Of a stretch of 45,746 nucleotides of DNA, positions 25,416 to 45,746 are shown in pieces (position 1 is the stretch's first letter; each line of letters starts with the position of its first letter). Source of the stretch: a virus; the IMG/VR virus record IMGVR_UViG_3300020156_000455, positions 1-45,746 of that record; one strand, given 5' to 3'. The position numbers and the translations under genes are program-made. The notes under the pieces were generated by a model. The model ran no database searches, was not told the origin of the DNA, and saw only the letters and a list, made by a program, of their open reading frames with translations.

Positions 25416-25919
25416 ATGATTCCTCAGACTTTGTACAACACCAACCTGTTCGTCGACGGCGTGAACTTCTCCGGCGACGTGCCCAGCCTCACGCTGCCCA
25501 AGCTGACCACCAAGACCGACGAATACCGTGGCGGCGGCATGGCCGGCCCCATCGAGATGGATCAGGGGCTTGAGAAAATGGAAGCCTCGTTTGTCACCAA
25601 GGGCGTGCGCCGCGAGTCGCTCAAATACTTCGGCCTGGCTGACGGCACGGCGTTCAACGCCACGTTCCGAGGTGCCTTCAAGGGCCAAAAGGGTGCGGTA
25701 ACGGCGGTCGTTGCCACCCTGCGCGGTCGCCTCAAAGAGGTCGATCTCGGTGACTGGAAAGCGGGCGATGCTGCTGAGATCAAGCATGCCGTTGCGGTCA
25801 CGTACTACAAGCTCGAAATCGACGGGCGCCTGATGTACGAGATCGACATGGTCGCCGGCATTCAAGTGATCGACGGCAAAGACCAACTCCTCGAAGTGCG
25901 CAACGCGCTCGGCCTGTAA
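25416..25919 (+). CDS. Major tail tube protein (P2 FII-like)
   Basis: A 167-aa protein starting MIPQTLYNTNLFVDGVNFSG. The pattern SGDVPSLTLPKLTTKTDEYRGGGMAGPIEMDQGLEKMEA and the C-terminal YYKLEIDGRLMYEIDMVAGI is that of contractile phage tail tubes. It lies 13 bp after the sheath gene, as in P2. Confidence 0.95.
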   Translation: MIPQTLYNTNLFVDGVNFSGDVPSLTLPKLTTKTDEYRGGGMAGPIEMDQGLEKMEASFVTKGVRRESLKYFGLADGTAFNATFRGAFKGQKGAVTAVVATLRGRLKEVDLGDWKAGDAAEIKHAVAVTYYKLEIDGRLMYEIDMVAGIQVIDGKDQLLEVRNALGL

Positions 25920-25932
25920 GGAATAGATTCAG

Positions 25933-26532
25933 ATGACTCAAGCAATCGCTAAAAACCTGCCGGCCTGGCTGTCGCTCAGTGCGCTCGGTGCGGTCGTGAC
26001 GCTGACCCGGCCAAGCAAGGCCAACAGCATCGACGTCGAGACGTTGAACCTGCGCAACCCGACTGTGCGTGAAGTGCGCGCGGCTGATCGTGCTGCCAAC
26101 GGCGACGACGAACAGCGCGAACTGATGCTGTTCGCAGGTCTCGCCGAAGTCGGACTGAAGGATCTCGAAGGCCTCAAGCTGACGGATTATCGCCGCGTGC
26201 AAACGGCGTATTCGCACCTGGTACCGAAAACCGATTATTCGGACTCGATGCCGGCGTGGTTGTCGCTGACGACCGACCAGGTGCTGGTGACGATGTCGTG
26301 TCCGAGTGAAATCAATGGTGTGACCGTCGACAAGCTGGCCTTGCGTTCGCCGACCGTGGGCGACGTGCGGGCGGCCAACCGTGAAGTGGGTGGCGATGAT
26401 GAGCAGCGCGAGCTGGTGTTGTTTGCTGCGTTGTCCGGCGCTTCGGTGGCGGATCTGGAGGGGCTGAAGCTGGTGGATTTTAACCGCTTGCAGGCCGGCT
26501 ATTTTCGCATGGACAACGACGACGGGCTTTAA
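25933..26532 (+). CDS. Tail assembly chaperone E-like, internally duplicated
   Basis: A 199-aa protein in the position of P2 gpE/Mu gp41 tail assembly chaperones. It is made of two homologous halves: residues about 8-98 and 105-194 each read NLPAWLSL / SMPAWLSL, then RPSKANSIDVETLNLRNPTV / CPSEINGVTVDKLALRSPTV, then REVRAADRAANGDDEQREL / GDVRAANREVGGDDEQREL, then DLEGLKL. A normal E has one such unit. The gene ends CTT TAA C, and a short E'-like frame follows in the +1 frame, so a frameshift product is expected. It assists folding of the tape measure. Confidence 0.82.
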   Translation: MTQAIAKNLPAWLSLSALGAVVTLTRPSKANSIDVETLNLRNPTVREVRAADRAANGDDEQRELMLFAGLAEVGLKDLEGLKLTDYRRVQTAYSHLVPKTDYSDSMPAWLSLTTDQVLVTMSCPSEINGVTVDKLALRSPTVGDVRAANREVGGDDEQRELVLFAALSGASVADLEGLKLVDFNRLQAGYFRMDNDDGL

Positions 26533-26644
26533 CCCCAGCGTTATCAAGTCGGCAGCGAAACGTCTGGCGGCGGAAACCGGATTTTCCGCCGCTGAGATCC
26601 AGTCGATGCCGTTCGCGGACATGGTGTGGTGGCTCACGGATTGA
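26531..26644 (+). CDS. E'-like frameshift extension of the tail chaperone
   Basis: A 37-residue reading frame (NPSVIKSAAKRLAAETGFSA then AEIQSMPFADMVWWLTD) in the +1 frame relative to E. It resembles the short P2 GpE' family (a helix, then 'MP...W'). The frame has no ATG, GTG or TTG between its upstream TGA (26465-26467) and here, so it needs ribosomal frameshifting. CTT TAA C at 26527-26533 permits a +1 slip of the Leu codon to TTT, the geometry of the prfB site, though no Shine-Dalgarno-like element is close. A -2 slip would give the same frame. Confidence 0.6.
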   Translation, partial: NPSVIKSAAKRLAAETGFSAAEIQSMPFADMVWWLTD

Positions 26645-26682: not shown

Positions 26683-29316
26683 ATGGCAAACAAACTCGCC
26701 CTCGGGCTGGTGATCGGCGGTGCCGTCAGTTCCACGGTCGGCGCCGCGTTCAAGGACGTAACCGGGCGCATCAAGCGCCTCGAGGCAGAAGGCAACAAAG
26801 CGCGGGTGCTGCAGCGCACGATTGGCGACACCATCCGCCTGCGCGAAGAATGGAAAAAGGCTCACGACACCGGCGCTGCCGGTGCGTCCAAATTACTCAG
26901 CCGTTTGAACTCGAACCTCGACAGCTTGAAAAAGCAGGGGGTCGAGGTCGGCCGGCTGGAAAAAGCCTATCGCTCGATGGGGCAGATGGCCAACAAGGCC
27001 GAGCTGAAAGCCAAGGGTCATCAGCAGACCGATTCTGGTGTAAAGGGCATGAAGGGCGCTGTCGGTGCGGCGGTGGTCGGTGTCGGTGCCATGGCGGTAC
27101 CGGCCAAGGTCAGCGCTGATTTTGGTGCCATTGTGCGAGACATCGCGATCAAGGCCGGCATTGCCAACAAGCCGCAAGAGCAGGAGATGTCGCGCAAGAT
27201 CATCGACACTTCACGCGACACCGGCATGGCGCGCAACGATGTGGCCGACGTGGTCAATCAGTTGGTCGGCGCCGGTATGGACCTGAGCAAGGCGCTGGAA
27301 TACGCGCCTGTCGCGGCCAAGTTTGTCGTGGGCCAGGGATCCAGCGGCGTCGACACGGCGAAGATGATCAATGCCCTGGGGCAGAACGCCAAGATCACCG
27401 ACCCCAAGCAGATGCAGCAGGCTTTGGAGGCGATTGCCTACCAAGGGCAGGCGGGCAGCTTTGAAGCGGCCGACATGGCCAAGTGGTTTCCGGAGCTGCT
27501 GGCCAACATGGCCAGCAACGGCATCACTGGCTTGGATGCGGTGGCGCAATTGGGCGCCATGCTGCAAGTGCAGATGAAGCAGGCCGGTAGTTCGGACGAA
27601 GCGGCCAATAACCTGAAAAACTGGATGGGCAAAATCGGCTCGGGCGATACGGTCAAGGCTTACGAAAAGGCCGGTATCGACTACAAGGGGTCGATGCAGA
27701 CCGGTTTGCAGAACGGCATGTCGACGCTTGAGACCAGTATGGCGCTGGCTCAGAAATACATTCAGGCGACCGATCCGAAGCGTGCGGCGGCCATGGCCGA
27801 AGCGACGTCGAAAATCAGCAAGGAAGCCAATCCGGACAAGGCCAAGGCCATGATGGCCTCGCTGGAAGAATCCCTGCGCACCGGCGACCTGTTCGCGGAC
27901 ATGCAGGTCAAGGCCGCGCTGTCGGCCTACATGCAGAACAAGGCGCTGTACAGCCAGCTGAAAAACGATTCGCGTGAAGCGACCGGGATCCTCGACAAGA
28001 ACCTCGCCGAGCGGCGCGAGTCGTCATCGCAGAAATGGGCGGAAATGGCCCAGTCGATGGATGACGCCATGCGCAGCATCGGCGATGCCTTGCGGCCTGT
28101 GACGGATGTTGTCGCGGAGTCGTTGACCAAGGTCACTAAAGGCATTACGTCGCTGACTGATAGCGCACCCGGGGTGGTCGGCGGTATTGCTACGGTCGGG
28201 GCGGGGCTGATCGCCTTAAAAGGCATCTTCAGCACGATCAAGATCAGCAAGGGGCTGTTAAACCTTGCTCGTGGTTCGCGCGGTGGCCGGGGTGGGGGCG
28301 AAGCCCGCAATAAAAATTCCGGAGAACTTGATCTGGTAGCGACTGGCCTGGATGTTGTTTCGCGGGTGAAGGAAGCGGCAACAGGCAGCCTTGGCACAGA
28401 AACTGGCGCAGGTAACGACGGCGTCAAAAAGGTGTTCGTCGTCAATGCCAACGCCATGGGCGGCGCTGGCGGCGCGGATATCCAAGGCGAGTCTCGCCGG
28501 CGTGGTCGCGGCTCGCGGCGCAGTGCTTCGCGGCGGCGGCCGCTGCCTCGCCCTGGGGCGGCGCGTTCACCGCTGCCGCGTCCGTCTGTTCCCGTACCAC
28601 GGCCGGTCACTCCACCGGTACCGGCTGTTCCGGCGGGCACGATGGCCAAGCTGGGCGGGGTTGTGCAGGCCGTTGGTAAGGTCGGCAAAGTCGCCAAGAT
28701 GATTCCAGGCGGTACGCTGCTGGAGTCCGGGGCCATGGCCTATGAGACGTTTGAAAACGCCAAGACCAAGGACGAAAAAGCCGAGGGCTACGGTGCGGCC
28801 GCTGGCAACCTGGCCGGCACCATGGCCGGCGCAGCAGCTGGGGCCGCCATCGGTTCGGTGGTGCCGATCATTGGCACGGCCATCGGCGGCTTGATCGGTG
28901 CTTACCTTGGCAGTCAGGGCGGTGCGGCGCTGGGCGGGTCGTTGGGCAAGTCGCTGTTCGGTGGCGAGGATGAAAAGCCCGAACAAACGGCAAAGGCACC
29001 GGTGCCGACTACGCCGCTCATGCTTACGTCAGCGGCGCAGCAAGGTCCGGTGCTGGGGGATGTCGCGCGCTCGATGGCGGTGACGGCGCCGCTCAAGTCG
29101 GCGGCGCTGGCGATTCAATCCAAGGAACCGGAAAAACCGGTGCCGGCCAAGGTGGATCAGCAGTTTCAGTATTCACTGAGCATGCCGGTGACCGTGCAGG
29201 GCGACGTCAAGGACCCGCAAACCTTGGCGCAGGATCTGATGCCGCACATGCAGCGAATGATGGCGGATGCGGCGAAGAGTAACGCCGCCAAGCTGTACGA
29301 CGAACCCCATGTCTAA
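26683..29316 (+). CDS. Tail tape measure protein (P2 gpT-like)
   Basis: An 877-aa protein. It opens MANKLALGLVIGGAVSSTVG, with helices in residues 20-140. A tape-measure core follows (VVGVGAMAVPAKVSADFGAI, ARNDVADVVNQLVGAGMDLSKALEYAPVAAKF, AVAQLGAMLQVQMKQAGSSDEAANNLKNWM). Hydrophobic Ala/Gly-rich segments lie near residues 490-510 and 695-750 (AAGAAIGSVVPIIGTAIGGLIGAYLG). An Arg/Pro/Ser-rich low-complexity linker occupies about 605-650. It sets tail length and enters the cell envelope during DNA injection. Confidence 0.94.
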   Translation: MANKLALGLVIGGAVSSTVGAAFKDVTGRIKRLEAEGNKARVLQRTIGDTIRLREEWKKAHDTGAAGASKLLSRLNSNLDSLKKQGVEVGRLEKAYRSMGQMANKAELKAKGHQQTDSGVKGMKGAVGAAVVGVGAMAVPAKVSADFGAIVRDIAIKAGIANKPQEQEMSRKIIDTSRDTGMARNDVADVVNQLVGAGMDLSKALEYAPVAAKFVVGQGSSGVDTAKMINALGQNAKITDPKQMQQALEAIAYQGQAGSFEAADMAKWFPELLANMASNGITGLDAVAQLGAMLQVQMKQAGSSDEAANNLKNWMGKIGSGDTVKAYEKAGIDYKGSMQTGLQNGMSTLETSMALAQKYIQATDPKRAAAMAEATSKISKEANPDKAKAMMASLEESLRTGDLFADMQVKAALSAYMQNKALYSQLKNDSREATGILDKNLAERRESSSQKWAEMAQSMDDAMRSIGDALRPVTDVVAESLTKVTKGITSLTDSAPGVVGGIATVGAGLIALKGIFSTIKISKGLLNLARGSRGGRGGGEARNKNSGELDLVATGLDVVSRVKEAATGSLGTETGAGNDGVKKVFVVNANAMGGAGGADIQGESRRRGRGSRRSASRRRPLPRPGAARSPLPRPSVPVPRPVTPPVPAVPAGTMAKLGGVVQAVGKVGKVAKMIPGGTLLESGAMAYETFENAKTKDEKAEGYGAAAGNLAGTMAGAAAGAAIGSVVPIIGTAIGGLIGAYLGSQGGAALGGSLGKSLFGGEDEKPEQTAKAPVPTTPLMLTSAAQQGPVLGDVARSMAVTAPLKSAALAIQSKEPEKPVPAKVDQQFQYSLSMPVTVQGDVKDPQTLAQDLMPHMQRMMADAAKSNAAKLYDEPHV

Positions 29317-37120: not shown

Positions 37121-38131
37121 ATGCAGCTCGATAGCCGGGGTCGGATTATTGTTATTGGTGCTTCTGCCGGCGGAGTCGAAGCGTTGAGAAGCCTATTTCG
37201 CTATTTACCTGCTGACTTACCGGCAGCGTTTTTGGTCGTGTTACATATTCCTCCACACTCTCCAAGTGAGTTGAGCAGAATACTTGCTCGAGAAACCAGA
37301 ATGGAGGTCGTTTCGGTCCAAGCCAATCAGTCTCTTAGAACCTCAACCGTCTACGTCGCCAGCGCTGATCACCATCTGCTTTTGACGGAGGAAGGTGTTC
37401 GTCTCACCCGCGGCCCCAAGGAATGCAGAGTTCGTCCAGCTATCGATGTGCTCTTTAGATCAGCGTCTGTCGCTTATGATTCTAGGGTGATCGGCGTGAT
37501 ATTGACCGGCGCACTGGACGACGGAACTGCGGGCCTTTGGGCAATAAAGGATAGAAACGGTACGGCACTCGTGCAGGATCCTTCTGAAGCTACTTATGAT
37601 TCCATGCCCCGCAGTGCGATAGAGCACGTGGAAACAGACTTCGTAGGCACGCTCGCGGAGCTGGCGAATCAGATTGCAACGCGGGTTAGATTACCAATAG
37701 AGCAAATGGTTACAGGCCCCTTGAACGAGCGCCATCTGATCGAAACGAGCATCAGTGAACACGGCAACGGCTTGGAAGCTGGCGTTATGAATATAGGGAA
37801 TATCTCAAACTACACATGTCCCGATTGTCACGGAGTTTTGGTGCAAATAAAGGAAGGATCGATCGTCAGATTTCGCTGCCACACGGGACATGCTTTTTCG
37901 ATAAAGACCCTAATTGCTGAAGTTAACGCCGCGATCGATACCGGGCTGTGGGACGCGCTTAGAGCGATTGAAGAAAGAATCATGCTGCTTCGTCAAATGG
38001 GTGATCTGGCAGAAGCGCAAGGATCTAAGGAAGATGCGGAGCTTTCCCGATCCCAAGCCAAAGACGCCGAGGAGCGTTTGAAGCCGCTTCGCGAGCTTGT
38101 ATTAGACCCAGACTTTTTTCACACCGGTTGA
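37121..38131 (+). CDS. CheB-type methylesterase with C-terminal zinc-binding tail
   Basis: A 336-aa protein: CheB catalytic domain at residues about 8-190 with Ser15 in GASAGG, His42 in VVLHIPPHSPS and Asp134 in LTGALDDGTAG. The C-terminal part (about 230-336) has CPDCHG and FRCHTGHAFS, a CxxC...CxxGH arrangement likely to bind zinc, followed by a helical segment (EERIMLLRQMGDLAEAQGSK). This architecture recurs among stand-alone CheB proteins outside chemotaxis clusters. No CheR is present. GGGAGGTGG precedes the start. A shorter CheB-only paralogue lies 2 kb upstream on the other strand. Confidence 0.87.
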   Translation: MQLDSRGRIIVIGASAGGVEALRSLFRYLPADLPAAFLVVLHIPPHSPSELSRILARETRMEVVSVQANQSLRTSTVYVASADHHLLLTEEGVRLTRGPKECRVRPAIDVLFRSASVAYDSRVIGVILTGALDDGTAGLWAIKDRNGTALVQDPSEATYDSMPRSAIEHVETDFVGTLAELANQIATRVRLPIEQMVTGPLNERHLIETSISEHGNGLEAGVMNIGNISNYTCPDCHGVLVQIKEGSIVRFRCHTGHAFSIKTLIAEVNAAIDTGLWDALRAIEERIMLLRQMGDLAEAQGSKEDAELSRSQAKDAEERLKPLRELVLDPDFFHTG

Positions 38132-44582: not shown

Positions 44583-45746
44583 TTATAATAGCATCAGGTC
44601 ATTTTCGATTTGATCAAAGAATCCCTCTGGCCAATGGCTGGGTCTTCCATCCTTAGAAATTGTGATTTGGCTGACCTCAGAGTTTTCGAGCTCGGCATCA
44701 CGTGAAAAAGAATTAAGGATGACTTCAGAGCTTTCTATTGTTGAATTTTTTACTGCGAGTCTAATTCCGTTTATTACATGATCACTGTGCGTTTCGATAA
44801 ATACTTGCCTACCGGTCGCCGCGATTAAAGCTAAGAAAACGCCTATTCTGGATTGGCTGAAAGGATGAAGGTGTGCCTCGGGGTTTTCTACAATTATAAG
44901 GCCATCACGCTTTAATGATAATGCAGCTACTATGATAGGAAGCGTGTAGGTCAGCCCGAATCCAATATGTGTAGCCCTTGTCGGCATTTTTGAGGACCCT
45001 GGTGCTCTGACAAAGCGTAGGGTTGTTGAGTCCGTGTTGTGTGATTCTTCAGCGTAAAACCTGGCACCGGGTATGACCCAGTCAAGCATTATGTTACTAA
45101 CTAGGTCTAGGCGACCTTCTGTGTCTATAAGATCTTTTTCTATTTCTTTGTTATCAAGTTTTCGTGCCGAGGTAGCTAATTGCTCCGCTAGGTTGCTACT
45201 CCAGGCATCTATGGTAAAAAAGCTTTTTGCAGAACGAGCGAGGGCCGCGGTAGTGTATTCGCCATGCTTTCCAATAAGACCGCAGATGCTTATGCCCTCA
45301 GTAGGTAAGCTATACGTTACACGCGGCCCTATTCTTTCAGCATTTAAGTAAGCAAAGTTAAGCCCCCGCTCCGAAAGGATTCTAGGAACTGTGCTGGTAC
45401 TTGATAATTGGAGTTTTCGTTCTGAAATTACTTCGCTAGCTTCTCTGTTGATATGGAAGTTATATTCAAACTTCTCTTTCTTGACAGTGAGCCCTAATTT
45501 GATTTTTCTCTCGCACGAAGGGTGAAATACATCTTGTGCTGTCCCGGCTTCGTAAAGAGGGCCGGATAGCATTAAGCTCTCAATTTCTCCCTCTTTATCA
45601 GACGACTGACGAAGTAATAATAATGCTTGTAAAAGACTTGATTTTCCTGATGCATTCGGTCCAGCTAAAATATTCAGGCTTGTAGTTTTAAGTCTGTGCT
45701 CAGTACTTAGTGATTTAAAGCCTTTTACGCGAATTTCTTCTATCAT
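44583..45746 (-). CDS. AAA15/OLD-type ATPase with DUF3696-like C-terminus
   Basis: A complete 387-aa SMC-like ATPase. Walker A GPNASGKSS (29-37), ABC-like signature region IGFGLTYTLP (261-270), Walker B IIVENPEAHLHP (284-295) and H-loop ETHSDH (318-323) are all present. The C-terminus (ITISKDGRPSHWPEGFFDQI) matches the DUF3696 tail of this ATPase group. The ATG lies exactly at the window edge, so any upstream partner is out of view. The middle domain (residues about 60-250) is not recognisable. Such ATPases act as sensors or regulators in defence systems such as PARIS or Septu. Lower GC than the prophage. Confidence 0.88.
   Translation of the reverse strand: MIEEIRVKGFKSLSTEHRLKTTSLNILAGPNASGKSSLLQALLLLRQSSDKEGEIESLMLSGPLYEAGTAQDVFHPSCERKIKLGLTVKKEKFEYNFHINREASEVISERKLQLSSTSTVPRILSERGLNFAYLNAERIGPRVTYSLPTEGISICGLIGKHGEYTTAALARSAKSFFTIDAWSSNLAEQLATSARKLDNKEIEKDLIDTEGRLDLVSNIMLDWVIPGARFYAEESHNTDSTTLRFVRAPGSSKMPTRATHIGFGLTYTLPIIVAALSLKRDGLIIVENPEAHLHPFSQSRIGVFLALIAATGRQVFIETHSDHVINGIRLAVKNSTIESSEVILNSFSRDAELENSEVSQITISKDGRPSHWPEGFFDQIENDLMLL

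Follow-up and report, generated by a model that had tools for sequence, protein, structure and literature searches.

Organization of the E/E' locus

The window, by which we mean the whole stretch of DNA that was analysed (a viral record of 45.7 kb), contains gene matches to terminase, portal and protease together with a P2/R-pyocin-like tail module. Two cargo-like prophage genes were also seen in the window, one for a CheB methylesterase domain protein (37121-38131) and one, on the minus strand at the right end, for an AAA/AbiEii-like ATPase with DUF3696 (44583-45746). Within the tail module, gene E was assigned as a Phage_TAC_7/P2 gpE tail assembly chaperone by its domain and by the flanking FII and T genes. 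Pfam and PHROGs each gave two matches in E, a head-to-tail duplication, and both halves align to single-copy E proteins of other Pseudomonas. The features of the locus are the following.

25416..25919, plus strand: FII tail tube, the gene upstream of E (PF04985; match to the pyocin R2 tube PA0623, E=2.3e-73)
25933..26532, plus strand: gene E, tail assembly chaperone, 199 aa, two Phage_TAC_7 domains in one ORF (PF10109, E=1.9e-37, two matched stretches; sequence)
25933..26223, plus strand: E copy 1, with TAT TCG CAC as the equivalent of the slip site and without UUU_C (TTT in 0/93 unique tandem ORFs)
26233..26529, plus strand: E copy 2, with the proposed shift site near its 3' end (alignment with single-copy E proteins)
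26500..26508, plus strand: proposed shift site TAT_TTT_CGC (E-, P- and A-site codons), slippery tetranucleotide TTT_C at 26503-26506 (TTT_C in 96/96 clusters, 0 parsimony changes)
26504..26641, plus strand: E' extension that would be read after +1 slippage, FAWTTTTGFNPSVIKSAAKRLAAETGFSAAEIQSMPFADMVWWLTD (F = re-paired Phe) (+1-frame F, W, A and WWL in 96/96 clusters; homology to -1-accessed E'; fusion of 236 aa)
26530..26532, plus strand: zero-frame TAA ending E, the slip point proposed by a preliminary description of this DNA (stop context and position unconserved)
26642..26644, plus strand: TGA ending E' (sequence)
26683..29316, plus strand: T tape measure, the gene downstream of E (PHROG 794, E=4e-195)

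E junctions were compared in a set of 80 viral loci carrying E and 80 carrying FII, together with 25 genome loci and 20 P. aeruginosa-type loci, to which 91 further places were added from the 121 positive genomes among 400 Pseudomonas-genus genomes searched. This yielded 240 unique E junctions, 236 of them usable for site analysis, which formed 96 clusters at <90% identity and 19 at 70% identity. Counts by cluster assume that the clusters are roughly independent, and changes counted on a parsimony tree (length 22.5), built without the shift site, are the safer measure. Sampling outside Pseudomonas came from a class-wide search of 369 genomes with 5 matches, including the reference itself; the matches outside Pseudomonas had WW- or W-type extensions, in -1 frames only.

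Conservation of the E' frame

As shown by the sequence, the 3' end of E reads GGG CTT TAA C, and the E' frame, +1 (equivalently -2) relative to E, runs from stop to stop over 26465-26644 and is open over 26468-26641 with no start codon. No ATG, GTG or TTG precedes its conserved core, and it encodes ...FNPSVIKSAAKRLAAETGFSAAEIQSMPFADMVWWLTD. The preliminary description had recognised an E/E' pair in which a start-less E' follows E in the +1 frame, a departure from the -1 arrangement of P2, and all of this was borne out. A WWL-type E' was found in the +1 frame at 234/240 unique junctions and in the -1 frame at 4/240, all from the distant phages Mica, Bas97, Persinger and Murka. For the other 2/240 (L098 and L169) neither frame was called; here the frame is broken upstream within E copy 1 or copy 2, by a frameshift or a deletion, shifting the reading; the second copy is intact in both, as are TTT_C and E'.

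The encoded extension is the usual WWL-ending one of tail chaperones, and WWL was present in 96/96 clusters, drawn from more than 100 genomes and viral contigs. On this comparative evidence the E' frame is under selection, and the idea that E' is a decaying relic or a product of sequencing error or polymerase slippage can be practically dismissed; a run of three T (TAC TTT C) is, moreover, too short for polymerase slippage. The same comparison bears on whether E' could be a separate protein made by reinitiation or from an internal start. From the site onward, 57/96 clusters do have some ATG, GTG or TTG in the +1 frame, but these starts are not conserved, 39/96 clusters have none there, an E'-frame start with an SD-like sequence is seen in only 6/96, and the invariant +1 F and W codons precede any such start. 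With no conserved start among the 96 clusters, the extension appears reachable only by a change of frame, and a separate E' protein is very unlikely.

Identification of the probable shift site

Around the site the window reads GGC_TAT_TTT_CGC, with UUU_C preceding the CTT codon by 24 nt (8 codons). Exactly one in-frame TTT_C was found near the end of E in 236/236 usable sequences, and it was retained in 96/96 clusters at <90% identity and in 19/19 at 70% identity. The codon that follows TTT was CGC in 189 sequences, CGT in 39, CGA in 1 and CTG in 7 (by cluster, CGC 72, CGT 20 and CTG 4, giving CGN in 92/96), and the codon that precedes it was TAT or TAC in 92/96 clusters. Phe codons elsewhere in the last 50 codons of E were TTC 70 times and TTT 35 times across the 96 clusters. 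Parsimony gave 0 changes at any base of the site TTT, compared with 14, 17 and 15 third-base changes on the same tree for the adjacent Tyr, the next Arg and the Phe of the LFA motif, respectively.

Downstream of the site, a conserved NTG G corresponds to a Trp of the +1 frame in 96/96 clusters, and counting the re-paired Phe as first, Trp is the second or third +1 codon in 236/236 sequences. The first base of zero-frame codon +2 varies (CTG/ATG/TTG/GTG; 10 changes), while the TGG in phase with E' is nearly fixed. Judged from these patterns, the +1 frame is constrained from the TTT_C codon onward. In many sequences +1-frame stops lie upstream of TTT within 8-13 codons and, taken with the conserved Trp downstream, they confine the shift to the stretch from roughly codon -8 to the Trp. 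In that interval TTT_C is the sole invariant codon able to re-pair in +1.

An interval of about 8 codons could also accommodate a +1 shift on some other codon shortly before TTT or, since -2 and +1 land in the same frame, a -2 slippage of the kind used by phage Mu, which at UUU would yield the transframe peptide LQAGYFFAWTTTTGFNPSVIK. However, the codons before TTT vary and none of them re-pairs in +1; inspection of TAY_TTT shows no re-pairing for -2 either, since the Phe anticodon would mismatch on AYU. TTT_C alone is invariant, and in a CTG class it has moved together with the +1 Trp, so that both of these routes are improbable.

This CTG class consists of four divergent clusters (L292-L295, L297, L313 and L314) reading TAC NNN TTT CTG GTG, for example TAC ACC TTT CTG GTG. 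The site is displaced by one codon, the A-site codon is CUG and not CGY, the aligned +1 residue is now P, A, T or R, and TTT_C has kept its place directly before the +1 Trp. Because TTC at the site would turn the +1 Phe into Ser, coding in the +1 frame may add to the constraint on TTT; coding alone is disfavoured by the CTG class, where the site has moved and the residue has changed with TTT_C retained before Trp.

The preliminary description had instead placed the shift at CTT TAA C, in the geometry of the prfB site, and had seen no strong upstream Shine-Dalgarno-like element. The latter agrees with our data, and the former does not. Alignment of the junctions of relatives, which it had suggested for CTTTAAC, recovered that sequence in only 10/96 divergent clusters, and UUU_C, a different slippery site upstream, in 96/96, the kind of pattern that it had named as evidence against its proposal. 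The zero-frame stop lies 6 to 23 codons past TTT, varying in position by 17 codons, in 32 different contexts. Slippage at CUU_UAA_C, which would yield the transframe peptide MDNDDGLNPSVIK, could draw on the NTT TRA Y ending of E in the window and in many close relatives, and on a possible re-pairing of CUU with UUU. Against this, CTT is replaced elsewhere by GTT, ATT, CTG, GTG, GAC, GAA, GCG, GGC or CAC, the NTT variation of the close relatives is silent in +1, where the codon is GGN (Gly), and constraint on the +1 frame sets in ahead of the stop. A prfB-type +1 frameshift at the stop codon was therefore rejected for want of both a conserved CUU-stop and an upstream SD-like element, and we regard it as highly unlikely. 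Overall, the comparison makes it very probable that E and E' are joined by a programmed +1 frameshift at UUU_C in TAY_UUU_CGY (26500-26508).

The same site, TAC TTT CGC CTG GTG, is found in P. aeruginosa R-pyocin clusters, where the stop follows 15-23 codons after TTT and never at CTT TAA. One P. aeruginosa-type cluster, in the R-pyocin-like record OQ658366, has a tube near-identical to PA0623; at its locus (L178; OQ658366 7797-8141) E is called hypothetical and E' carries no annotation at all.

Tandem duplication of E

Tandem E genes were seen in many P. fluorescens-group prophages, and single-copy E in the P. protegens and P. aeruginosa types. Since either half of a tandem E could in principle hold the shift site, the duplication provides an internal control within the gene. 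Among unique tandem ORFs, the codon of copy 1 that matches the slip site was TCG in 81, ACG in 7, GCG in 2 and another Ser codon in 3. TTT_C has thus been lost in 93/93 from copy 1, which is not followed by an E', while copy 2 keeps it, so that each duplicated gene carries its own natural mutant control.

Putative mechanism of frameshifting

For the tRNA mechanics at UUU_C, we infer that, while the A site is empty, the P-site peptidyl-tRNA-Phe (anticodon GAA) would move one base 3' and re-pair from UUU to UUC. Of the two codons, UUC is the better partner for tRNA-Phe (GAA) (PMC3498833), so a one-base move from UUU_C would gain a pair. Decoding would then restart at GCA UGG to give the 236-aa E-E' fusion ...LQAGYF-AWTTTTGFNPSVIK...WWLTD, for which the predicted tryptic junction peptide is LQAGYFAWTTTTGFNPSVIK. 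The majority of ribosomes would continue to the UAA and make E alone. By analogy with lambda G/GT, E may coat the tape measure and E-E' may recruit the tube protein. A low shift rate would suit such a chaperone pair, the frameshift rate of the phage Mu tail chaperone being about 2.2%.

UUU_CGN occurs in frame 11 further times across the 24 other ORFs of the window, suggesting that the dicodon alone may shift little, and these genes use CGC more often than any other Arg codon, which argues against rarity of the A-site codon as the trigger. No conserved SD-like element was found near the site, where anti-SD duplex energies were weak and unpeaked. Folding just 3' of the site was no better than that of shuffled sequences (mean z +0.3 and +0.2). 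Between +40 and +100 the mean z was -1.6, yet RNAalifold on 96 codon-aligned sequences gave no consensus structure. In the window this folding signal corresponds to a 10-bp GC-rich hairpin inside E' (26567-26592; GCGGCGGAAA-CCGGAT-TTTCCGCCGC), about 60 nt past the site, which is shared by close relatives only. According to the Atkins review, some tailed-phage and influenza shifts appear without stimulatory signals.

Comparison with known frameshift sites

Work by Schwartz & Curran from 1997 reportedly showed, with reporters, that UUU-CGN dicodons make E. coli ribosomes slip +1; that slippage at UUU-pyrimidine was in artificial constructs, whereas the site described here is natural and conserved. 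In influenza A PA-X, the shift is at UCC_UUU_CGU and the +1 product was proven by mass spectrometry (PMC3498833). The two cases share UUU_CGY, re-pairing of the P-site UUU to UUC (predicted here), a preference for CGN and no known stimulator; they differ in that the present one involves the bacterial ribosome, lies in a gene for a structural protein, includes a class with CTG in the A site and has TAT or TAC (92/96) as its E-site codon in place of UCC. A +1 class of UUU_C with CGN had been predicted by Firth et al. (PMC3498833), who left open its use by cellular genes. With TTT_C in 96/96 clusters, CGN in 92/96 and conservation beyond coding need, the E/E' site appears to belong to this class. 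The bacterial prfB (RF2) site, CUU_UGA_C, is also a +1, P-site slippage, but in E/E' there is no A-site stop, no SD-like stimulator and a different slip codon. The tail chaperone shift of phage Mu (PMC3498833, PMC5009743) is in a homologous gene position and ends in the same frame; it is -2, however, and TAY_TTT_CGN offers by inspection no -2 re-pairing.

P2 is alike in its gene order FI FII E E' T U D, its start-less E' and the extension of E by frameshifting. A passage in PMC3931495 that cites Christie et al. 2002 describes its E/E' (E+E') shift as -1 at T6G, and the P2 record has the slip sequence TTTTTTG; by contrast, our locus has E' in +1, UUU_C with no X_XXY_YYZ or T6G heptamer, and a duplicated E. 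Mica, Bas97, Persinger and Murka have a recognisable E (PF10109), and their E' profiles are homologous to those of the +1 phages (hhalign probability 97%, E=1.1e-10), although E' follows in -1 in all four, and Mica and Bas97 carry A_AAT_TTT_A. This homology indicates that one protein extension was retained while the route of access switched between -1 and +1.

Tail chaperone shifts in +1 and UUU_CGN sites are each already known; a search of the open-access literature, in which an earlier report could be missed, found none that combines the two. The E/E' junction offers a deeply conserved UUU_C with CGN that would be decoded by bacterial ribosomes, in more than 100 Pseudomonas lineages and in R-pyocin clusters, and its mechanism is directly testable in E. 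coli. A doubtful but conceivable extension is that UUU_CGY is a self-sufficient, naturally selected bacterial +1 site and that the E:E-E' ratio, and with it tail and R-pyocin assembly, tracks the translational state of the host, because the rate at UUU_CGY would depend on tRNA-Phe (A37 modification and charging).

A gpE homologue of about 95 aa was also encountered as an orphan in another prophage context (L360; G878:C1:2344117-2347383), with a second copy at G878:C1:4904410. It is accompanied by no tube, tape measure or E', reads TTC ATG at the position of the site, which makes it a further natural control, and, lying in a non-tail context, is possibly a decoy chaperone.
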